64,000 bases of DNA. Origin: Thermosynechococcaceae cyanobacterium MS004. Its GTDB lineage: Bacteria > Cyanobacteriota > Cyanobacteriia > Thermosynechococcales > Thermosynechococcaceae. Under the pieces are notes generated by a model. That model searched no databases. It was not told the origin of the DNA and saw nothing but the letters and a program-made list of their open reading frames with translations. The translations under genes were made by a program, and so were the position numbers. Location: positions 124,001 to 188,000 of the forward strand of contig JAKRSB010000085.1 of assembly GCA_022402525.1 (NCBI GenBank), in the 5' to 3' direction. Shown here piece after piece: positions 25,453 through 48,945 of the stretch. Each line of letters starts with the position of its first letter. The first letter of the stretch is position 1.

Positions 25453-26082
25453 ATGCAACTTATGGGGCAATCAAAGGCTCCTGAGCTAAGCCATAGCTCA
25501 TCATCTCAGGGCCACCTTTTAAGCGATTTTCAGAGAGAAGTATTGATGAAGGCGCTGAACCACAATTTGTCTCTAGCGTATCGACGTCGCATTGAAATTA
25601 TGCTGTTAGCAGATTTAGGCCATTCGCAAGCGCATATCTGTAAAGTCTTAGGATGTGCGCAGCAAACTGCGCGCCATTGGATTGCTGTTGCCGAGTCAGG
25701 GAAAGCGCATCTATGGAATGACGATCAAATCGGCCGTCCCAAAACAATCAATAGCCAGTTTATAGATCGACTTAAAGAGCTGGCGACCAAAAGTCCGCGA
25801 GACTACGGGTATTCTTTTCATACATGGACGGGAGACTGGCTCAGAAAGCATTTAGCAAAGGAATTAGGGATTGAGGTTAGTAACCGACATATCAATCGTC
25901 TTCTGAGTCAGTTGGGTCTTTCGAGTCGACTAAAACCTCTTAAGGCAGAGCAAAAGTCTCTAGAGCAATACAGCATCAATATTCAAGTATTGAACCCAAA
26001 AAGCTTGCCAAACTCCGAGTTTGTATGGGGACTTAATCTTGTTCATCCTACCATTTGTCAGCCCAATGCTGAATTGAACTAA
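25453..26082 (+). CDS. Transposase-derived helix-turn-helix protein
   Basis: A 209-residue protein whose residues about 28-165 resemble the DNA-binding half of IS630/Tc1-type transposases: RRRIEIMLLADLGHSQAHIC and VLGCAQQTARHWIAVAESG form a first HTH, and DWLRKHLAKELGIEVSNRHI with LLSQLGLSSR a second winged helix. The DDE catalytic domain is absent and the protein ends after a unique tail (NPKSLPNSEFVWGLNLVHP). No terminal inverted repeats flank it. It begins the secretion locus, 74 bases before the exporter, so a regulatory role is plausible but unproven. A truncated transposase is the alternative. Confidence 0.7.
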   Translation: MQLMGQSKAPELSHSSSSQGHLLSDFQREVLMKALNHNLSLAYRRRIEIMLLADLGHSQAHICKVLGCAQQTARHWIAVAESGKAHLWNDDQIGRPKTINSQFIDRLKELATKSPRDYGYSFHTWTGDWLRKHLAKELGIEVSNRHINRLLSQLGLSSRLKPLKAEQKSLEQYSINIQVLNPKSLPNSEFVWGLNLVHPTICQPNAELN

Positions 26083-26156: not shown

Positions 26157-29100
26157 ATGATACAGTCTCCTTCTGCTGTTTTAAGTCATCAGCTAAGTCT
26201 GACCTTAAGGCAAATTTTGGGTACTTTCATTTTCGAGGAGGACTTGGCGCAGAGTATTCGTCAAGTTGAATTTCTATACCCTACTTCTAGTAAAAATTTT
26301 TGGCACTCAAACAGTGCTGCGGCTGGTCTTTATATTGTCTTGACCGGTAAGGCTCGAATTCTGGACTGCCATGAAAATCTCGTGGTCTCTATCGGTCCAC
26401 AAGAAACCTTTGGAGAGATTACGCTCTTTCCCGATGAAGGATTTCATCCTTATAAGGTTCGTGCATCCCTAAGTTTACAAATTGGGGTTTTGCCTGAGAC
26501 ATTCGTGCGCTATCTCATGCAAAAATATCCTGCACTTCAGGAAAAACTGAGAACTCAGGCTGTCCAGCAAGATCTGCTGCTGTTCTGCCGGCAGAGTCTG
26601 CTGCTGCGGTATGCAGATTCTGAAGCGTTAAAAAAACTTGTTTCGCAACTTGAGCCTCATACCTTAAGCCCAGGAAGCCTTCCTATCCCACTCTATGACG
26701 CTCAGTCTCTTTGGCTAATTCGTCAAGGTGAGCTTCGAAGTAGGTCTGCGTTTGAAGGGCCTGAGGTAAGGTTCCAAACAGGGCAGCTTATTTTATTGTC
26801 AGAGGTTCCCGTTGTGAGGGATTTACAGGCCTCTCAGCCTACTGAGCTGTATAGTCTGAGTGACCTTGCAAGAGATCTGCTGGTACAAAAATTTCCTTTG
26901 CTTGCGTCTCTGCTTACGTCCTGGGGAAAAACTCAAAACGGTGAGGCGATTTCAAGGATTCACCGCCCACTTCCGCAGAGCCTAGAGCCAATCACAGGGT
27001 TTGCACGCCAGAAAGATGCGATCGCAAAGCCCGTACTACAGGTATCGCGTCAACCTTCGCGCCGTCAGTATTTTCCAAACCCTACCACTCGGCTAAGTCA
27101 AATCTGGCGTCGTGTTGCTCGACAATATCCTTTTTTTGCCCAGCAAAGTGCAACAGACTGTGGTGCAGCCTGTTTGGCGATGGTTGGACGGTACTGGGGC
27201 AAGCGCTTCAGCATTAATCGCCTAAGAGATTTGGCGAATGTAAACCGAAGCGGCTCTTCCCTACGCTTTTTGGCAGACGCCGCAGAAAGTATCGGATTTA
27301 TAGCTAGACCTGTCAAAGCAAGTTTAGATAAGCTTGCGGAGCAGTCTCTCCCGGCGATCGCCCATTGGGAAGGAAAGCACTATGTCGTGGTGTATGCCAT
27401 CACGCCCAAGCGCGTCATGATCGCCGATCCGGCTATTGGCCAGCGATCGCTCACCCATGCTGCCTTCAAGCAAGGGTGGACAGGATACACACTGCTGTTA
27501 GAGCCAACAATCCTGCTCAAAACAGCCCAGGAAGCCAATCCAGCCTTTTGGCAGTTTTTTGAGCTCATTAAGCCTCACAGCCTCGTATTATTTGAAGTTT
27601 TAGCGGCTTCTTTACTGATTCAAGTTTTTGGATTAGTTACCCCATTGCTGACCCAGCTCCTTTTGGATCGGGTTGTTGTCCAGGGGAGCGACCTGACGCT
27701 TAATGCGGTTGGGTTTGCGCTGCTGATTTTTGGGATCTTCAAAATTGCGACCACCGGACTCAGACAGTACCTCCTTGACCATACCGCCAATAAAATTGAC
27801 CTCTCGCTGATTGTGGGGTTTATTCAGCATACATTTCGACTTCCGATGCAGTTTTTTGAATCCCGCTACGTGGGCGACATTATGTCGCGGGTTCAGGAAA
27901 ACTATAAGATTCGACAATTTTTAACCGGGGAAGCACTCTCTATCCTCCTAGACTTGACAACCGTTTTTGTTTACCTCGGACTCATGTTTTGGTATAGCTG
28001 GCGGCTAGCACTACTGGTGCTGGTTGTTGTGCCGCCGTTTTTTTTGTTGGCGCTGGTTGCGACCCCATTTTTAAGACGAATCTCCAAGGAAATTTTTAAT
28101 GGGATGGCCGCCGAGAATAGCTACCTCATCGAAGCGCTGACCGGCATTCGCAGTATTCGCTCTATGGCTTTGGAGCAAACTGTGCGCTGGCACTGGGAAG
28201 GACTGCTGAGCCAATTTATCAGAAGCACGTTCTCTGGCCAGCTCGTGAGCAATCGCCTGCGCATTTGCAGCTCAGTCATTGAGTCCTTCGCTATCACGTT
28301 TCTGCTTTGGTTTGGGGCAGGCCAAGTGATTCAAAATCAGCTCTCGGTTGGGCAGTTAGTTGCGTTTTATATGCTGCTGGGCAATGTGATTACGCCCTTT
28401 CAGCGCATGATTGTGCTTTGGAACCAGCTTCAGGAAGTCGTGATTGCCGTGGAGCGGATTAATGATGTTTTAGATGCTGAACCAGAGGAAGATTTGCAGC
28501 AGCAGCCCCGCCAAATCTTGCCCATGTTGCAAGGGTCGATACGCTTTGAGCAAGTGACCTTCCGCTACCACGCCAGTAGTGACATTAATACTCTAGAAAA
28601 TCTTAGTTTTGAGGTACACCCCGGCCAAACGGTAGCCCTAGTAGGACGGAGTGGTTCTGGGAAAACCACGGTTTCTAAGCTAGTTTTGGGGCTTTATCCT
28701 CCCACCACCGGAAGAATCTTAATGGACGGGCAGGATATTACAACGCTATCACTGCGATCACTCAGGCAACAAATTGGAGTGGTCGATCAGGATACCTTTC
28801 TATTTGGCGGAACCATCCGCGACAACATTAGCATTGCCCATCCCGAAGCCACCTTAAGCGAAGTGATGAAAGCCGCAGAGCAAGCAGGGGCAGATCAGTT
28901 TATTCGACAGTTGCCACTGGGTTACGAAACCCTGGTTGGTGAGGGGGGTGGCTTACTGTCCGGTGGTCAGCGTCAGCGGCTGGCGATCGCACGGGCGCTT
29001 TTGGGGCAGCCCAGACTCCTGATCTTAGATGAAGCGACCAGCCATCTTGATGCTGAGTCAGAGCGCATTATTCAGCAAAACTTCGCCACAATTTTGCAAA

Positions 29101-29270
29101 ATCGAACCACTCTTGTGATTGCTCATCGGCTTTCGACGATTTGCAATGCCGATCTCATCCTGGTGCTTGATCGCGGCGTCTTAATTGAACAAGGAACCCA
29201 TGCCGAATTAATGAAAAAACATGGACATTACTTTTACCTAAATCAGCAGCAGTTTGCTATTGCAAGCTAA
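26157..29270 (+). CDS. C39 peptidase-domain ABC transporter with cNMP-like N-terminus
   Basis: A 1037-residue bacteriocin-type exporter. Residues about 35-150 form a cyclic-nucleotide-binding-like domain (AAGLYIVLTGKARILDC, GPQETFGEITLFPDEG), with a weaker second copy to about 260. Residues about 325-455 are a C39 protease with QQSATDCGAACLAMVGRYWG (catalytic Cys335), His408 in KHYVVVY and Asp424 in DPA. Six membrane helices follow (about 465-750), then an ATPase domain with Walker A GRSGSGKTT at 830-838, LLSGGQRQRLAIARALLG and LLILDEATSHLD. Such proteins cut leaders after GG and export the core peptide. The architecture is like HetC and other cyanobacterial peptide exporters. The likely substrates are the two small precursors at 32.7-33.3 kb. 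Confidence 0.93.
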   Translation: MIQSPSAVLSHQLSLTLRQILGTFIFEEDLAQSIRQVEFLYPTSSKNFWHSNSAAAGLYIVLTGKARILDCHENLVVSIGPQETFGEITLFPDEGFHPYKVRASLSLQIGVLPETFVRYLMQKYPALQEKLRTQAVQQDLLLFCRQSLLLRYADSEALKKLVSQLEPHTLSPGSLPIPLYDAQSLWLIRQGELRSRSAFEGPEVRFQTGQLILLSEVPVVRDLQASQPTELYSLSDLARDLLVQKFPLLASLLTSWGKTQNGEAISRIHRPLPQSLEPITGFARQKDAIAKPVLQVSRQPSRRQYFPNPTTRLSQIWRRVARQYPFFAQQSATDCGAACLAMVGRYWGKRFSINRLRDLANVNRSGSSLRFLADAAESIGFIARPVKASLDKLAEQSLPAIAHWEGKHYVVVYAITPKRVMIADPAIGQRSLTHAAFKQGWTGYTLLLEPTILLKTAQEANPAFWQFFELIKPHSLVLFEVLAASLLIQVFGLVTPLLTQLLLDRVVVQGSDLTLNAVGFALLIFGIFKIATTGLRQYLLDHTANKIDLSLIVGFIQHTFRLPMQFFESRYVGDIMSRVQENYKIRQFLTGEALSILLDLTTVFVYLGLMFWYSWRLALLVLVVVPPFFLLALVATPFLRRISKEIFNGMAAENSYLIEALTGIRSIRSMALEQTVRWHWEGLLSQFIRSTFSGQLVSNRLRICSSVIESFAITFLLWFGAGQVIQNQLSVGQLVAFYMLLGNVITPFQRMIVLWNQLQEVVIAVERINDVLDAEPEEDLQQQPRQILPMLQGSIRFEQVTFRYHASSDINTLENLSFEVHPGQTVALVGRSGSGKTTVSKLVLGLYPPTTGRILMDGQDITTLSLRSLRQQIGVVDQDTFLFGGTIRDNISIAHPEATLSEVMKAAEQAGADQFIRQLPLGYETLVGEGGGLLSGGQRQRLAIARALLGQPRLLILDEATSHLDAESERIIQQNFATILQNRTTLVIAHRLSTICNADLILVLDRGVLIEQGTHAELMKKHGHYFYLNQQQFAIAS

Positions 29271-29417
29271 GCCTCATCTGCACAGTTCCCTTGATTCTTT
29301 CTCTCCATTCCTTCTTGCGTATGTTCCCTGCAGCCCAACCTTTAACCGCATTCACCATGCAGCCTCCAAAATATAGGCCCAATCCTAGCGCTCCTTGCAG
29401 ACAAGGATCTTTCACCC

Positions 29418-31562
29418 ATGGCAAACAACTCGCCTCAGCCCCTCCAGGTTTCACATAATCCGCCCCTCAACGACCCACTTCTCAGCGACCAGGCTCTCAT
29501 CGGCCAGACTAATCCCAACTATTCCAGGCATAGAATTTTAATCATTGATGACAACTTGGTGCTGCGCAAGTTAATTTCCAGCCAGCTTACCGGCGATCTT
29601 CTGGAGGTATACGAAGCAGAAAGTGGCCAGCAAGGTATCGCCAAGGCATTGGAAATTCAGCCTAGCCTGATTTTGCTGGACTTCTATATGCCAGAAATGG
29701 ATGGCTATGAAGTCTATCAGGCCCTTAAAGCCCAAGAGCAGTGTGCCAAAATTCCAATTATTGTGCTGTCTGCTAGCTACAGTGATGTTGCAGATCGGTT
29801 TGGAGCACTTTTAACCCACGAAAACTTTCTGCCAAAACAAGCGAGCTATGAGGAACTGCGCGATCGCATTCATCAAGTCTTGGCACAAGATTCCCCATCT
29901 TCTGCAGGAGAAAAGATAGCCAGCACAACAGCAACATCTACATCAATTTCCCTGCCACTCCAAGAGGTTTCTACCTTAATCACCCACCTGTGCGAAACAG
30001 AGCATCAGGCCAGCGCAAAAAACCTGGCTTCAATCCAGCAGACTGCTGCCCTTCAGACAGTGGTGGAGCCGAACACCACCCCTCACGCCCTTGCGCTGCC
30101 AGTGCCAGAGCAACCAGCGATCCAGCGCCTCGAAAACGACTATGCCTACGCAACCCAGGAACTGCTGACCGCCCTTCCAAGAGTGTGGACAAGAGGGCTA
30201 CTCTACTTTGTCATTATTTTTACTGCAATTGGGCTGCCGTTAGCGGTGCTGTCCAAAGCAGATGAGACAGGTAGCGCCCGTGGCCGTCTTGAACCAGAAG
30301 GTCAAACCTTTAAGGTTGGTGCGGCCGAAAGCGGCAAAGTGGCAAAAGTGCTGGTCAAAGAAGGCCAGCAGGTCGTCAAAGGCCAGCCACTGTTAGAGTT
30401 AGAGGCCTATCAAGTTGAATCAGAGCTTCAGCAGGTACAGGCTAAACTCTCTGGCCAGCTGAATCAGATGGGACAAGTGCAGCTCATTAAGAGCCAGCTT
30501 AATCTCCAGGTTCTAGAGCAGCAAAAACAAGGCCAAACCCAGGATCTTGAAAAGCAGGCGCAAGTTTCCCAAGCCCAAGGGATTTTAGCGGGCAAGCAAT
30601 CCACCTTTAAGGCCCAACGGGCCGAAAAAAAGGCGCTGCTGGATCAGGCCAAGGAGTCTTTAAGCATCCAGCAAGCAAATCTCCATTTTTTTCAAAAGCA
30701 AGTTGAGCTAAATCAATGGGAGCTCGACCGATTTCTCCAGGCTCAAGCTGAAGGGGCCGTTCCGCAAATTACAGTCATCGCCAAGCAGAAAGATGTTGCA
30801 GATAGCGAACGGCAGTTGTCCCAAGCGATCGCTGATATTAAAAAAGCGAAGCTACAGCTAGCAGAACAAGAAAATCAGTACGGGCGATCCGTTGCCCAAC
30901 TTCAAAACGACATTGACCTATCTAAACTTCAGGCTGTCGAGGTAGGCCGCAATCATCAGAGCCTAAATCATTCCAACTCCCTAGCCCTTCAGAAAGTGCA
31001 ACAGCAGCTCGAAGAGCTACAGTCACAAATTGCCATACTTCGGGCCAATATTGCCCAGAGTGAAGGCCAGATTCAATCGCTCAAGCGGCAGATAGATCAG
31101 CGACTCCTGCGATCGCCAGCCAATGGCACCATCTACAAGCTTCCGATTCAGCGCACAGGGGCGGTGGTAGAGCCCAGCGCCCTCATTGCTGAAATCGCCC
31201 CCATAGGAACTCCCATGATTTTGCGAGCGAAAATGACCACTCGCGAAAGCGGCTTTTTACATCTCAATATGCCTGTGCGCGTAAAGTTTGACGCCTATCC
31301 TTTCCAGGACTACGGCATTGTAAAAGGAACCTTGAGCCGAATATCTCCAAATTCAGAGATAGAAAACACGAATCATGGCTCAGTCGCAACGTTTGAGATT
31401 CAGGTCAAGCTCAAAAAAACCTGTATCCCTAGTGGCCAAAAGTGCATTGCACTGAATCCAGGTCAAACCGCAACGGCTGAAGTCGTAGTGCGTCAGCGAC
31501 GAGTCATCGACTTTTTCCTAGATCCCTTTAAAAAACTGCGCAGCAGCGGCCTCAAACTTTAG
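29418..31562 (+). CDS. Receiver domain fused to HlyD-family membrane fusion protein
   Basis: A 714-residue protein. Residues about 37-157 are a complete response-regulator receiver domain: Asp44-Asp45 in ILIIDDN, phospho-acceptor Asp88 in LILLDFYMPEMDG, Ser118 in IIVLSAS and Lys140 in FLPKQ. A Ser/Thr/Pro linker (160-240) leads to one membrane helix (about 259-279). Then come a lipoyl-like barrel (FKVGAAESGKVAKVLVKEGQ), a long coiled-coil hairpin (about 330-560) and a C-terminal beta-barrel (LRAKMTTRESGFLHLNMPVR), as in HlyD adaptors. The receiver should face the cytoplasm and the adaptor the periplasm. AAGGA ten bases before the ATG supports the start, so the fusion is real. It follows the C39 exporter by 147 bases. 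Confidence 0.9.
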   Translation: MANNSPQPLQVSHNPPLNDPLLSDQALIGQTNPNYSRHRILIIDDNLVLRKLISSQLTGDLLEVYEAESGQQGIAKALEIQPSLILLDFYMPEMDGYEVYQALKAQEQCAKIPIIVLSASYSDVADRFGALLTHENFLPKQASYEELRDRIHQVLAQDSPSSAGEKIASTTATSTSISLPLQEVSTLITHLCETEHQASAKNLASIQQTAALQTVVEPNTTPHALALPVPEQPAIQRLENDYAYATQELLTALPRVWTRGLLYFVIIFTAIGLPLAVLSKADETGSARGRLEPEGQTFKVGAAESGKVAKVLVKEGQQVVKGQPLLELEAYQVESELQQVQAKLSGQLNQMGQVQLIKSQLNLQVLEQQKQGQTQDLEKQAQVSQAQGILAGKQSTFKAQRAEKKALLDQAKESLSIQQANLHFFQKQVELNQWELDRFLQAQAEGAVPQITVIAKQKDVADSERQLSQAIADIKKAKLQLAEQENQYGRSVAQLQNDIDLSKLQAVEVGRNHQSLNHSNSLALQKVQQQLEELQSQIAILRANIAQSEGQIQSLKRQIDQRLLRSPANGTIYKLPIQRTGAVVEPSALIAEIAPIGTPMILRAKMTTRESGFLHLNMPVRVKFDAYPFQDYGIVKGTLSRISPNSEIENTNHGSVATFEIQVKLKKTCIPSGQKCIALNPGQTATAEVVVRQRRVIDFFLDPFKKLRSSGLKL

Positions 31563-31630: not shown

Positions 31631-32425
31631 ATGCAACATACAATTTCGATTTCACAAGATGATTTGGTGAAACACCTGAAACTGTCCTGCCAAATTCCCC
31701 AGATCATTGAGGGAATTGTGGCGCACAAAATCATTATGGCGATCGCAGAAGCAGAAGAGATTGCTGCAGAGCCAGAAGAGCTTCAGGAAGCAGCCGATAG
31801 CCTCAGGCTTACAAATAATCTTAGGCAAGTGGATGAAACTCTAGCATGGCTGCGTCATCATCATCTAACGATAGAAGAATTCGAAACCATTAGCCGCACC
31901 AGCGTCATCACAACGAAGCTCGCAAAGCACCTGTTAGAGACACAGATAGAGCCATTTTTTTGGGAGCATCGCCTAGAGTACATCAAAGCCGTCATTTATG
32001 AACTTATTCTAGAAGATGAAGACCTCGTACAAGAGCTCTACTATTCGCTGCAAGAGGGAGAAGCTAGCTTTTCTGAGATTGCTCGGCAATATATACAAGA
32101 ACCAGAAAAGCGTCGTCTAGGCGGATTTCGCGGCATTGTGTCACGGCAGGAATTAAGACCTGAAATTGCAGCAGCAGTTTTTGCAGCATCTCCTCCACAA
32201 CTCATTGCGCCCATTACTTCACCCTTGGGGACACATTTAATCTTAGTAGAAGAGATTATTCAGCCCATCCTTGACAAAGAGATGCGAGACAGAATTCTTT
32301 CCCATTTATTCACAGAGTGGCTAAAAGGAAAGATTAAGCAGGCAGAAGTTACCATCAACCTCTCCGGCAAATCTTATTTACCTCAGCAGTCCATCTCTAC
32401 TGTAACGATAGAAGCAAGTATGTAA
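31631..32425 (+). CDS. Parvulin-type peptidyl-prolyl isomerase of the export locus
   Basis: A 264-residue SurA/PpiC-like protein. The N-terminal half is helical (HTISISQDDLVKHLKLSCQI; LAWLRHHHLTIEEFETISRT), and residues about 140-235 form a rotamase domain: GEASFSEIARQYIQEPEKRR, LGGFRGIVSRQELRPEIAAA and ITSPLGTHLILVEEI. It has no signal peptide, so it acts in the cytoplasm or is carried out by another route. It is 68 bases after the REC-HlyD gene. Parvulins are frequent neighbours of cyanobacterial C39 exporter genes and may keep precursors export-competent. Confidence 0.85.
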   Translation: MQHTISISQDDLVKHLKLSCQIPQIIEGIVAHKIIMAIAEAEEIAAEPEELQEAADSLRLTNNLRQVDETLAWLRHHHLTIEEFETISRTSVITTKLAKHLLETQIEPFFWEHRLEYIKAVIYELILEDEDLVQELYYSLQEGEASFSEIARQYIQEPEKRRLGGFRGIVSRQELRPEIAAAVFAASPPQLIAPITSPLGTHLILVEEIIQPILDKEMRDRILSHLFTEWLKGKIKQAEVTINLSGKSYLPQQSISTVTIEASM

Positions 32426-32684: not shown

Positions 32685-32894
32685 TTAAAAAGCAAAGCTT
32701 AAGCTGAATGCACGACCTAGTGCATCAAATCCAGAAAAAGATAAAGATGCTGTTGAACCACTGCCGGCTGATACCGCAACACCAAATTGATTTGCGACCG
32801 CTCCTGCTGTATAGCCATATCCACCAATAATATTTTCTCCAGAGATACAATACATCTTTTGTTCATTTAGTTCAGAAATAACTAAATTTGTCAT
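32685..32894 (-). CDS. Double-glycine-leader secreted peptide precursor 1
   Basis: A 69-residue precursor. Residues 1-25 are a leader with ISELNE at 6-11 and GENIIGG at 19-25, a C39-type double-glycine cleavage site. The predicted 44-residue core starts YGYTAGAV and is rich in Gly, Ala, Ser and Phe without Cys, ending SLSFAF. The ATG is preceded by GGAGAAAATCA. It resembles precursors of cyanobacterial bacteriocin-type (CTB-like) peptides. It lies opposite and convergent to the exporter operon. Biological activity is unknown. Confidence 0.85.
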   Translation of the reverse strand: MTNLVISELNEQKMYCISGENIIGGYGYTAGAVANQFGVAVSAGSGSTASLSFSGFDALGRAFSLSFAF

Positions 32895-33059
32895 TGATTT
32901 TCTCCATTCTTAGACTATTAATGAGTATTTAATCTAGTCAAAACACTCATGAAAAAATTTTAGGTACAGCTTTTCCAAAAATATTTTTGGAAAAACTGTA
33001 CTTCATTAAAGTCATTAAGAACCATAGGCAAATCTAGTATGCCTATAGTTCTTATTTAT

Positions 33060-33257
33060 TTAGATGTTAAGAGAGAACGAACCAAGAACCAAGCTAGAAG
33101 CACTTAGAGACAGAGCTCCACCAGCACCACCAGCGTAAGTACCACCGGTTAGGCCAATCGTAGCAGTTTGAGAAAATCCAACGCCGCCAAAGACCTGCTC
33201 GGCATTGACATCATATAAAGCGACTTCATTTAGTTCAGAGATTTTGATAATAGACAT
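33060..33257 (-). CDS. Double-glycine-leader secreted peptide precursor 2
   Basis: A 65-residue precursor starting at the ATG at 33257, which has AAGGAG eight bases upstream; the longer frame from 33281 lacks such a site. The 25-residue leader has ISELNE at 6-11, Tyr15, Glu20 and Gly-Gly at 24-25, the same positions as in precursor 1. The 40-residue core begins VGFSQTATIGL, contains GGAGGALSLSASS and ends FSLNI, with no Cys. The hydrophobic Gly/Ala/Ser-rich core suggests a membrane-active or self-assembling peptide. It is 165 bases upstream of precursor 1 in the same direction. Confidence 0.85.
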   Translation of the reverse strand: MSIIKISELNEVALYDVNAEQVFGGVGFSQTATIGLTGGTYAGGAGGALSLSASSLVLGSFSLNI

Positions 33258-35851: not shown

Positions 35852-37174
35852 ATGAATGGGACAAATCTTGTGACGCAATTGTCTGAGACCGCTTCAAAGG
35901 AATCTGTGCAGCCACTCTCTGGTGAAGTTGCAAGTCATCCGGACAAAAGTATTGTGGCGGTGATTCAGCAGTATCTTCAGAAGCCTTGGACTGGATACCT
36001 GAAGGTCGAAAGCGGTGCGATCGCCTGGTTTATTTATATTCGCCAAGGCCAGCTTGTCTTCATTACCCACTCCATCGATCCCTTTTCGCGGCTGGATTTG
36101 TATCTTAAAGATTTAGGCGATCGCACCCCTAGCCTAAGTGTGGATGTGCGCAATGAATTGCGAATCTCCCTAAGCCAAGTCGATGCCTCCGGCCCGCTTT
36201 CTCCTGACCTTCAGGGACTTGCTGCTTTGCTGAAAGATCATGTCTTAGAAGGGGACGCGGTACAGACGCTGCTGACCACTCTCTCCAGAGAGGCGCTAGA
36301 AAGCCTCCTGCTGATTCAAAGCAGTACCTATAGTTTTGTGTCCGTCAAGCTTGAGCTGGACTGGGTGCGGCCACTCACCTTCACCAAACTCCTCGCAGAC
36401 TGCACTGAGCGCCTGCGAGTATGGCAATCCATGCGATCGTACATTACCTCCCCCTATCAGCGACCCTATTTAACCCAGCCTTCTGAAGCAACACAGACCT
36501 TTTTGGCCTCTACGGATCACAAACGGCTCGGTCAGCTTTTAAAAGGGTTTAGTTTTCGTCAGCTTGCCCTATTGCAGCACCAAGATGAATTAGACATTGC
36601 CCGCACCCTCTATCCCCTCATTGTAGATGGGGCCTTAGAGATCCGCGCTCCGCTTACCCCCTATCACAATCTGCCCAGCTTCATAAATCTTGCGCCGGCC
36701 ATCGATAACAGCAGCCTGTTTCCGCTGATGGAGCCGGACGAAGACCCTGTAGCACCTCCCCTCTTTCAAACGGCGGCCTCCACCAAGACCTACACAATCG
36801 CCTGCATTGACAACAGTGCAGCCATCTTAGAGACTGTCCAGGAATTTCTGAAGGACGAAATCCTAAGCCAGAAAACCCTCTCACTCTGCTTGGTTCAAGA
36901 TTCTGTCAAAGCCCTAACGGAGCTGATTAAGGTCAATCCCGATCTCATCCTGCTGGATACTGAACTACCTGGGGTAGATGGCTATGCCCTCTGTCAGCTA
37001 TTCCGGAAGCACCCGTCTTTTAAGGCCATACCCATCATCATGATGACGGGGCATACCGGACTCATTGACCGTGCCAATGCTTCGGTTGCGGGTGCAACGG
37101 GCTTTATTATGAAGCCTTTTACGCAGGCTGAGCTTTTAAACGTGATTTTTAAGAATCTAGGGCTTACACATTGA
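35852..37174 (+). CDS. PatA-type response regulator (DUF4388 plus receiver)
   Basis: A 440-residue protein. Residues about 25-130 form a PATAN/DUF4388-type domain (LQKPWTGYLKVESGAIAWFI, YIRQGQLVFITHSIDP), a middle helical region follows, and residues about 312-438 form a receiver: IACIDNS (Asp with Asn where a second Asp is usual), phospho-acceptor in LILLDTELPGVDG, Thr in IIMMTGH and Lys in GFIMKPF. PatA-type regulators act in heterocyst pattern formation and phototaxis or pilus control in cyanobacteria by protein contacts, not DNA binding. No partner kinase is adjacent. Confidence 0.85.
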   Translation: MNGTNLVTQLSETASKESVQPLSGEVASHPDKSIVAVIQQYLQKPWTGYLKVESGAIAWFIYIRQGQLVFITHSIDPFSRLDLYLKDLGDRTPSLSVDVRNELRISLSQVDASGPLSPDLQGLAALLKDHVLEGDAVQTLLTTLSREALESLLLIQSSTYSFVSVKLELDWVRPLTFTKLLADCTERLRVWQSMRSYITSPYQRPYLTQPSEATQTFLASTDHKRLGQLLKGFSFRQLALLQHQDELDIARTLYPLIVDGALEIRAPLTPYHNLPSFINLAPAIDNSSLFPLMEPDEDPVAPPLFQTAASTKTYTIACIDNSAAILETVQEFLKDEILSQKTLSLCLVQDSVKALTELIKVNPDLILLDTELPGVDGYALCQLFRKHPSFKAIPIIMMTGHTGLIDRANASVAGATGFIMKPFTQAELLNVIFKNLGLTH

Positions 37175-46068: not shown

Positions 46069-47031
46069 ATGCTCAACTTTCGGAATTATTACGAAATTTT
46101 AGAGGTTCCTAGAGCCGCTAGCAGTGATGAAATTAAGCAGGCCTATCGTCGCCTTGCCCGTAAATACCATCCCGACCTGAATCCCGGCAATAAGGCCGCT
46201 GAAGATCGGTTTAAGGATATCAACGAAGCCTACGATGTGCTGTCTGACCTGACCAAGCGCTCCCAGTACGATAGCTTTGGCCAGTACTGGAATCAGCAGG
46301 GGTTCCAGCAAAAAACAGGCCCTACCCATCCCCAAAACTGGAGCGATCGCGCGGGTGCTGCGCCTGCTGGCTCCGCGTCCTCTGATGACGTTGATTTTGG
46401 TAAATTTGCCGATTTTCAAGACTTTGTGGATCAGCTCATTGGCAAGCGTCGTAAAGCCAGCACTGCAGCCCGCGCTGATCGGCGCTCGGCGCGTCCAGAA
46501 CCGACCGTGCCAGGACGACGGGATGCGGAAGCCCGCCTCGTTATTCCTTTGGAAAAAGCCTATGCCGGAGGGCGAGAGCGCATTCGCCTCGAAGATGGTC
46601 GCTCGTTGGAAGTCAATATGCCGGGGGGGATGGTCTCCGGTCAGCGGATTCGGCTCAAGGGCCAGGGCACAAACGGGGGCGATCTTTACCTCAAGATTGA
46701 GGTATTACCCCATGAGTTTTTTAAGCTAGAGGGCATTGATATTGTGTGTGAGCTGCCCATTACGCCGTCAGAAGCCATTCTGGGCGGTCAAATTGAGGCC
46801 CCCACCCTGGATGGCTGGGTCAAAATGACCCTTCCGGCGGGGGTTCGCTCCGGGCAGCGCCTACGCTTGGGCAGTAAGGGTTATCCCGCCGCTGAGGGCA
46901 ATGGCCGGGGCGATCAGCTCGTGCAGATTCGCATTGAAATTCCTCAAAATCTCAGTGACCAAGAGCGATCGCTTTACGAAAAGCTGCGAGAGACGGAAAG
47001 TTTCAAGCCCCGTGCGAGTTTACCGGTTTAG
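46069..47031 (+). CDS. dnaJ: J-domain co-chaperone (DnaJ type without zinc finger)
   Basis: A 320-residue class-B (CbpA-like) DnaJ. The J domain at residues 5-70 has [11 protein letters not shown] with the HPD motif that triggers DnaK ATPase. A Gly/Ser-rich and basic linker follows, then two C-terminal substrate-binding barrels ([57 protein letters not shown]). The CxxCxGxG zinc finger of class A is missing. It probably serves the adjacent DnaK. Its last 12 bases overlap the convergent cyclase gene. Confidence 0.93.
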
Positions 47032-48945
47032 ATTTTGCCCCAGCACCCGAAACACGTTGACTTGAACTGCCTTCCCCTTCAGGTGCATCTCGCCCCAAGG
47101 CTCTAGGGCGTAATCTTCCTGTAGGCAGTCGCGGGTTTCTCCCGCAATCAAAATGCGGCAGGGGGAAGGCTGACGATCTTTATCAAGACTTTCAAGGCGC
47201 GATGCAATATTCACGCTGTCGCCAATGACGCCATACTCTAGCCGAATCCGGCTGCCTAAACTGCCCACCACCACCGGGCCTGTAAAAATGCCGACCCGCA
47301 TTTCCACAACGGGGAGCCCCACCGCCGCCCAGCGCTGGTTGAGCGGTTCGAGGGTTTGGGCCATGGCGATCGCACAGTCCACCGCGTGCCTTGCATCCTG
47401 ACGAATTTCGTCGGGCTGCTCGTGGGCAATGGGCACCCCAAAGACCGCCATAATACCGTCCCCCGTAAATTTGTTGATGACGCCCTGGTGCTGCTGAACA
47501 TGGGTGGCCATCCAGTCAAGGTACTCATTGAGCCACACCAAAAGCTGTTCTGGGGAGTATTTTTCAGCGATGGTGCTAAAGCCTTTGAGATCCGTAAACA
47601 ACAGCGTTGCCGTGAGACGCTGCCCTGGGAGCTGACCATTTTCAAGGAGTTCATCCCGTCGCTGCCACAGGGTTGCCGCAATTTCGGGGGAGGTACTCTG
47701 TCCCAAAAGCCGCATCACGATTTGCTGCTGCTGCTTCGCCTGCTGGGCACTGTAGGCCACCACGCTGCCCATGGCAATTAAGAAGGCAAGTCCCGGCGGC
47801 ACTAGCGGAATCCAGCCGCTTTGGCTAAAGACAAAAAAACAGGCCCCCAGCAGCCCTAGCATACTGAGGGGCGTCGCCAAGAATAAAAACAAAGGCCGCC
47901 GCGATCGCCCCGCCAGCAATCCCCCCAAAACCGCCCAGGCCAAAATCCAGAGTCCTTCTGCACCATCAGGCCAAGCCCAGCGCAGGGGTCTAGTGCCCGT
48001 GGCCGCATCCAAAAACTGGCTGACCATCTGGGCATGAACCATCACCCCCGGCACCCGACGGTCGTCGGTCTGTCCCGCACTGTAGGGCGTACTAAAAAAG
48101 TCCTTTGCACTTTCTGCCACATTGCCGATTAGCACAATGCGGTTTTGGATCTGCTCCGGCGGCACCCGTCCCTGCATCACGTCGCCTAAGGACACCATAG
48201 GAATACTCTTAAGTCCACCGCGATAGGTCAATAACACCTGATAGCCCCTGGCATCGACATTGGTATACCCCCCTTCACTCGACTGAAGGGGAATAAAGTC
48301 CGTGGGGCCAAGCCGCATATAGGCAGGATTCAGGGGACTAGCCTCTGACTCAATCTTGTCGTCCCTGAGGTAGCGCAGCGCAAGCTGAAGGGAAAAGGCA
48401 GTGCTCTCTTCGGGGCCAAACAGTAAAACCCGTCGAATCACATCGTCCTTGTCCACCAGCACATCGTTAAACCCAATCTGCTCCGGCGGCAGCGCCTTGG
48501 GCGGTGCGATCGCAGGCTGGTTAGCATCTCCTAGCTTTGTAATGCCAATGATGCGGTCAGAGCGCTGAAGTTGCTGTACAAAAGCAGCATGGCCAGGCTC
48601 CACCGGACGATCACGCCAAATATCCAGACCCACCGCCCTGGGCTTAGCGGCCAGCAGCTTCGCAAAAAGATCCGCATAGACCTGGTCAGGAAATTGAAGC
48701 ATCCCGTCCCTGTCCTGAATATCCTGCTCCGTAATGCCAACGACCAAAATTCTGGTGTCCGGCGGACGCGGCGACTGGCGGCGCACCATCCAGTCGTAGG
48801 TCACCAGCTCAATCCATTCCAGGGTGCCCAAGGTTCTGAGGGCCAGAATGAACATCGTAACGGCTACGCTGGCGATCGCCATTCCCCAGAAGCTTGCCGT
48901 ATCCTCCTGCAATCGTCGTGGACGGGGTTTTGCACTAGTCTTCAC
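47020..48945 (-). CDS. CHASE2-domain adenylate cyclase (class III)
   Basis: A 641-residue membrane sensor-cyclase. TM at about 20-42, periplasmic CHASE2 domain about 43-325 ([59 protein letters not shown]), three hydrophobic segments about 330-400, cyclase domain about 440-625. Catalytic motifs: [17 protein letters not shown] and [13 protein letters not shown] (two metal Asp, and Lys for adenine selection), [18 protein letters not shown] (transition-state Asn and Arg). All are present, so it should make cAMP. The CHASE2 ligand is unknown. It overlaps dnaJ tail to tail by 12 bases. Confidence 0.92.

Follow-up and report, generated by a model that had tools for sequence, protein, structure and literature searches.

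Within the window, by which we mean the whole 64,000-nucleotide stretch of DNA analysed here, lies an operon of three genes, the second of which encodes a type I secretion membrane-fusion adaptor of the HlyD family that carries a response-regulator receiver domain, of the kind ordinarily used for switching genes, ahead of its single membrane helix. The operon and its immediate surroundings comprise the following features.

25453..26082 (+), HTH protein like the N-terminal part of IS630 transposases (PF13565; the IS630 model itself scores below its cut-off)
26157..29270 (+), long-type peptidase-containing ABC exporter of 1037 residues, directly upstream of the fusion gene (Pfam)
29403-29407 (+), AAGGA, a ribosome-binding-like site ten bases 5' of the ATG (sequence)
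29418..31562 (+), receiver-HlyD fusion adaptor, 714 aa (ORF, Pfam, NCBIfam, AlphaFold2)
29526..29888 (+), receiver domain, residues 37-157 (Pfam PF00072, catalytic residues, fold)
29679-29681 (+), candidate phospho-acceptor D88 (residue check)
29889..30179 (+), linker, residues 158-254 (alignment, AlphaFold2)
30180..30254 (+), single transmembrane helix, about residues 255-279 (AlphaFold2, hydropathy)
30255..31559 (+), HlyD periplasmic part with lipoyl halves, long alpha-hairpin (331-561) and beta-barrel (TIGR01843, PDB fold matches)
31631..32425 (+), PpiC/SurA-like rotamase, third gene of the operon (PF00639, E 1.5e-11)
32685..32894 (-), second small GG-leader peptide, likely cargo, with the leader ISELNE...Y...E...GG common to both peptides (sequence)
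33060..33257 (-), small GG-leader peptide, likely cargo, MSIIKISELNEVALYDVNAEQVFGG / VGFSQ... (sequence)

The frame of the fusion gene is free of stops across all 714 codons, and the first-pass annotation, which had cited this continuity and the AAGGA site against an assembly artefact, was correct on both. Its description of a full receiver was likewise borne out. Pfam Response_reg matches residues 40-151 (E 1.6e-17; 64.1 bits against a cut-off of 30.2), and AlphaFold2 predicts a complete receiver fold of five strands and five helices over residues 37-157, with pLDDT of 90-98 over most of it. Direct inspection together with the model places D44, D45, D88, S118 and K140 at the expected strand ends; the aromatic switch position is occupied by F137. 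The first ~50 residues of the linker can be aligned with those of receivers linked to DevB adaptors, the remainder is predicted to be disordered, and model confidence is low over residues 161-251. Kyte-Doolittle hydropathy (19-residue averaging) exceeds 1.6 in one stretch only, residues 258-282, and AlphaFold2 models the membrane helix at residues 255-278. The adaptor part scores 211.8 bits with the type_I_hlyD model TIGR01843 (cut-off 208.65), matches HlyD_3 at residues 564-667 (E 4.5e-16) and has EmrA, MacA and HlyD as its neighbours by fold in the PDB, while its 53.6 bits with the DevB profile TIGR02971 fall under the cut-off of 129 and place it outside that family. Pfam detected no DNA-binding output domain in the protein, whose C-terminal part is HlyD. 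Since the receiver lies N-terminal to the single membrane helix, it would by HlyD-family topology sit in the cytoplasm, in agreement with the arrangement first proposed.

The exporter gene directly upstream (26157-29270), already named as the adaptor's partner, encodes cNMP_binding (50-124), Peptidase_C39 (324-451), ABC_membrane and ABC_tran domains. The operon is a cyanobacterial 'group I' double-glycine peptide exporter, a class that is already known and whose transporters have an N-terminal extension of ~300 residues (PMC3140520). In the window exporter the C39 domain begins at residue 324, and an HlyD gene, a rotamase gene and two GG-leader precursor genes lie near it; the order exporter, adaptor, rotamase is kept in relatives. 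The two convergent peptide genes (32685-33257) have their leader in common (ISELNE...GG) and differ in their cores, and their products are the probable cargo of the window exporter, judged from sequence. Further GG-leader pattern matches in the window were dropped, as they overlap other genes or are without the common leader. The first-pass annotation had the structure right and underestimated its spread (see below); it also missed the known exporter class, the probable cargo genes downstream and the receiver type shared with DevB adaptors.

Several neighbouring genes deserve mention in their own right. An IS630-like HTH gene of ~200 residues precedes the exporter in three genomes (window 25453-26082; L041:4689-5237; L046:16-657), and its product may be a regulator of transposase origin. 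Some 3.4 kb downstream of the operon lies a gene for a PatA-like protein (35852-37174, +) in which DUF4388 is combined with an atypical receiver, and a CHASE2-adenylate/guanylate cyclase (47020-48945, -) lies ~15 kb from the exporter with its cNMP-binding domain. Among the genes scanned, those of the exporter operon and its neighbours, no kinase gene was recognised.

We then asked how far the architecture extends. The profile search and phylogeny that the first-pass annotation had suggested recovered receiver-HlyD fusions from eight genomes, spread over three cyanobacterial families, in a draw of 390 cyanobacterial genomes with five candidates scored per genome, so that the count is a lower bound. 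These are the source genome (G000), G161 (with three), G209, G222, G235, G249, G057 and G198, and at least nine receiver-HlyD adaptors lie in the seven genomes other than the source. The source genome itself has three more, C128 (643 aa), C60 (728 aa) and C126 (687 aa; receiver degenerate), and every one of its four strong HlyD matches, the window's included, carries a receiver. A restriction of the architecture to one genome was therefore rejected: fusions recur in other genomes and families and most of their receivers are intact, contrary to the outcome that would have counted against the original proposal, a fusion in a single genome with a decayed receiver in relatives. The window's exact pairing, its receiver type with a T1SS HlyD, has so far been found in the source genome only. 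Outside cyanobacteria, neither a mixed sample of 25 genomes nor 229 genomes from the class to which G393 belongs (Luteibacter; Gammaproteobacteria) showed a fusion; this absence is weak because, in the class search, nine candidates per genome were scored with the NarL-type profile alone.

Other loci encountered in this search add some context. The G249 fusion (L048:2842-4658, C302), a NarL receiver-HlyD gene, is frame-shifted just past the receiver in an incomplete assembly, through error or decay. Genes for APH-type kinases occur near receiver-HlyD operons (L009:2152-4454, L010:907-3330, L042:11115-13361, L049:1058-2263), in the first three cases adjoined by HopA1-family genes. This pair is known from class V lanthipeptide synthesis, and the exporters near these genes may carry modified peptides. 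One HlyD adaptor (L058:7791-9737, G018) begins with a signal-like segment at its N-terminus and has a LysM domain and an additional membrane helix ahead of the adaptor portion.

The fusions involve two kinds of receiver. All HlyD fusions other than the window's carry NarL-type receivers, whereas the window receiver and its post-receiver linker are of a different kind, 44-49% identical to modules linked to DevB. Two genomes of the same genus, G235 (labelled Thermosynechococcus sp. WC_1) and G249, carry the window-type module on DevB itself; G209 (Acaryochloris sp. CRU_2_0) encodes it as a gene of its own, 183 residues long and immediately 5' of devB, at a locus that adjoins polyketide-synthase-like genes. 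Among 29 genomes of the order the module occurs only at these three DevB loci and in the window; in the more distant copies of Gloeomargaritales, the receiver leads into a coiled coil and a hydrophobic segment at the C-terminus. Receivers of this type, on or beside DevB or with a hydrophobic segment of their own, have therefore been placed at the membrane repeatedly.

On the receiver tree, the window lies within the DevB-linked receivers as sister to the copy of G209 (95/91), apart from the NarL types (100/98), on a long branch (0.81); its HlyD part also sits on a long branch (0.82) of the HlyD tree. There, receivers occupy about five separate positions, namely an old three-family clade, a clade of C128, C60 and the G249 and G222 adaptors, two further G161 adaptors and the window, and well-supported branches force at least four changes of the receiver label, although the joins include some long branches and weakly supported forks. 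With two receiver lineages as well, a single ancient fusion is not favoured. Among related exporters, that of L041 (transporter 70% identical to the window's) has an adaptor with a NarL-type receiver and that of L046 (68%) an adaptor without one, so receivers have been gained, lost or replaced at the adaptor position. A receiver from G161 clusters with the C128 and C60 receivers, but its adaptor falls elsewhere, which suggests that receivers have been shuffled between paralogues. The repeated attachment of receivers at one and the same position speaks for a use.

Constraint on the receivers was assessed from catalytic residues and substitution rates. All DevB-linked copies, the window receiver and 10 of the 12 fusions of HlyD to a NarL-type receiver keep the catalytic residues intact; the two exceptions, G000 C126 and G222 C248, are without key residues. 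Between the paralogues C128 and C60, dN is 0.16 for the receiver, 0.19 for HlyD and 0.44 for the linker, with synonymous sites saturated.

Our preferred reading, to which we assign a probability of roughly 0.5, is that the fusion is a phosphorylation-switched adaptor. A phosphorylatable receiver would have been added to the cytoplasmic N-terminus of the membrane-fusion adaptor of a double-glycine peptide exporter, and a putative orphan histidine kinase would phosphorylate D88. The modified receiver, on a long flexible tether next to the ABC exporter, would then alter the clustering or docking of adaptor N-termini on exporter or substrate and thereby switch or tune peptide export after translation. 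The ~90-residue disordered linker makes rigid allosteric coupling less likely and favours tethering, docking or clustering. Export as such does not depend on the receiver, because the L046 adaptor has none and that of L041 has another type. It has been reported that recognition of the substrate and assembly of the complex require the cytoplasmic ends of such adaptors (PMC8277102), and the cNMP domain of HetC binds ppGpp and is required for HetC function (PMC10986499). In favour of two-component control we counted the intact catalytic residues, the recurrent joining, the receiver changing as slowly as the adaptor between C128 and C60, the lack of a DNA-binding output, the repeated membrane placement of the window's receiver type and the cNMP-bearing partner; against it, the failure to recognise a kinase among the genes scanned, the related exporters whose adaptor has no receiver or one of another type, the two decayed receivers, the long branch and the disordered linker.

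The same observations can be read in other ways. The receiver could be a constitutive protein-protein module that pairs adaptors or docks them to the exporter or a scaffold, with phosphorylation of little weight. Dimerisation is common among receivers, the long linker fits docking, and degenerate receivers persist on G000 C126 and G222 C248. However, most receivers, the window's included, keep a full catalytic set that would be superfluous for docking alone, and we consider this explanation unlikely, if well worth keeping in mind. Rather less probable is signalling in the reverse direction, in which the adaptor would anchor the receiver at the export site, there to recruit a kinase, act as a phosphate sink or report the state of the exporter to transcription. 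Related receivers do exist as a stand-alone gene beside DevBCA (L043, L091), those of Gloeomargaritales carry their own hydrophobic C-terminal segment, and stand-alone receivers are common in cyanobacteria (PMC9953108). Yet no partner was found, and recurrent covalent attachment to adaptors is better explained by control of the exporter. We give still less credence to the fusion as a near-neutral passenger of domain shuffling, tolerated since the adaptor N-terminus is free: the receiver-less adaptors of many genomes have only short N-terminal tails, and receivers have been gained and lost, two of them decaying, but the receiver changes slowly between paralogues, retains its catalytic residues and recurs. 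Finally, the joining of a receiver gene to an adaptor gene by assembly or annotation, for which the occurrence of the exact window combination in the source genome only might speak, is largely refuted by the single open frame with its own ribosome-binding-like site, by the linker that it shares with DevB-linked receivers and by independent fusions in other assemblies; the same receiver and linker, fused or adjacent to other adaptors in related genomes, rule out a chance or chimeric assembly.

Returning to the phosphorylation-switched adaptor, the sequence evidence suggests that export pumps may be switched directly by phosphorylation in these cells. More tentatively, and with less than even confidence, one may envisage a general scheme, run by some cyanobacteria, in which receivers joined directly to inner-membrane components of export machines, on T1SS HlyD, on DevB and on a polysaccharide-type membrane protein, would allow histidine kinases to gate secretion, not transcription. 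On the last of these, NarL-type receivers occur on long membrane proteins beside glycosyltransferase-like genes (L176:7558-9741, which is G000 C46, and L175, L177 and L178). The C-terminal part of these proteins resembles a polysaccharide co-polymerase in its two end helices and Pro-rich motif and has no Pfam match, and the four receivers form one clade on the receiver tree.

Accounts of how type I secretion is controlled generally concern gene expression or transporter ligands. An intact, repeatedly gained receiver on the adaptor would make direct control of the secretion machine by kinases testable, would offer a handle on the poorly understood cytoplasmic ends of adaptors, and supplies a natural blueprint for peptide export that phosphorylation could switch. 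None of the three components, exporter, adaptor and receiver, is new in itself; the receiver on the adaptor appears to be undescribed. The first-pass annotation knew of no HlyD-family adaptor with this domain, and we likewise found no description of one in the literature searched, which left most subscription papers and the domain-architecture databases outside it.

Comparison with known systems places the fusion as follows. The window adaptor shares with HlyD-type T1SS adaptors (TIGR01843; E. coli HlyD, EmrA/MacA fold) the single N-terminal helix, lipoyl halves, hairpin and beta-barrel, as well as a gene adjoining that of the ABC exporter, but differs from them in an extra cytoplasmic part of ~250 residues with an intact receiver. 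Group I bacteriocin/GG-peptide clusters (Wang 2011, PMC3140520) have the same long-type C39 ABC exporter, HlyD, SurA/rotamase and nearby GG-leader peptides, with an HlyD that is single-domain there and receiver-bearing here. A long-type C39 exporter set with GG-leader peptides is also found in S. elongatus, where the EbfG peptides and the PteB exporter are needed for biofilm formation (PMC4997328). HetC (PMC10986499) is similar as a cNMP-C39-ABC exporter with a regulatory ligand domain; unlike HetC, which has no adjacent adaptor gene, the window system carries a second regulatory domain, on its adaptor. Some DevB adaptors of DevBCA exporters (TIGR02971) share the window's receiver type, fused in two genomes and adjoining in a related one, whereas the window adaptor is a T1SS HlyD and its exporter a peptidase ABC protein instead of DevCA. 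With NarL/OmpR response regulators and CheY-like stand-alone receivers, the window protein has in common the receiver fold and catalytic set; its output, in contrast, is neither a DNA-binding domain nor a free receiver, but a transmembrane export adaptor.
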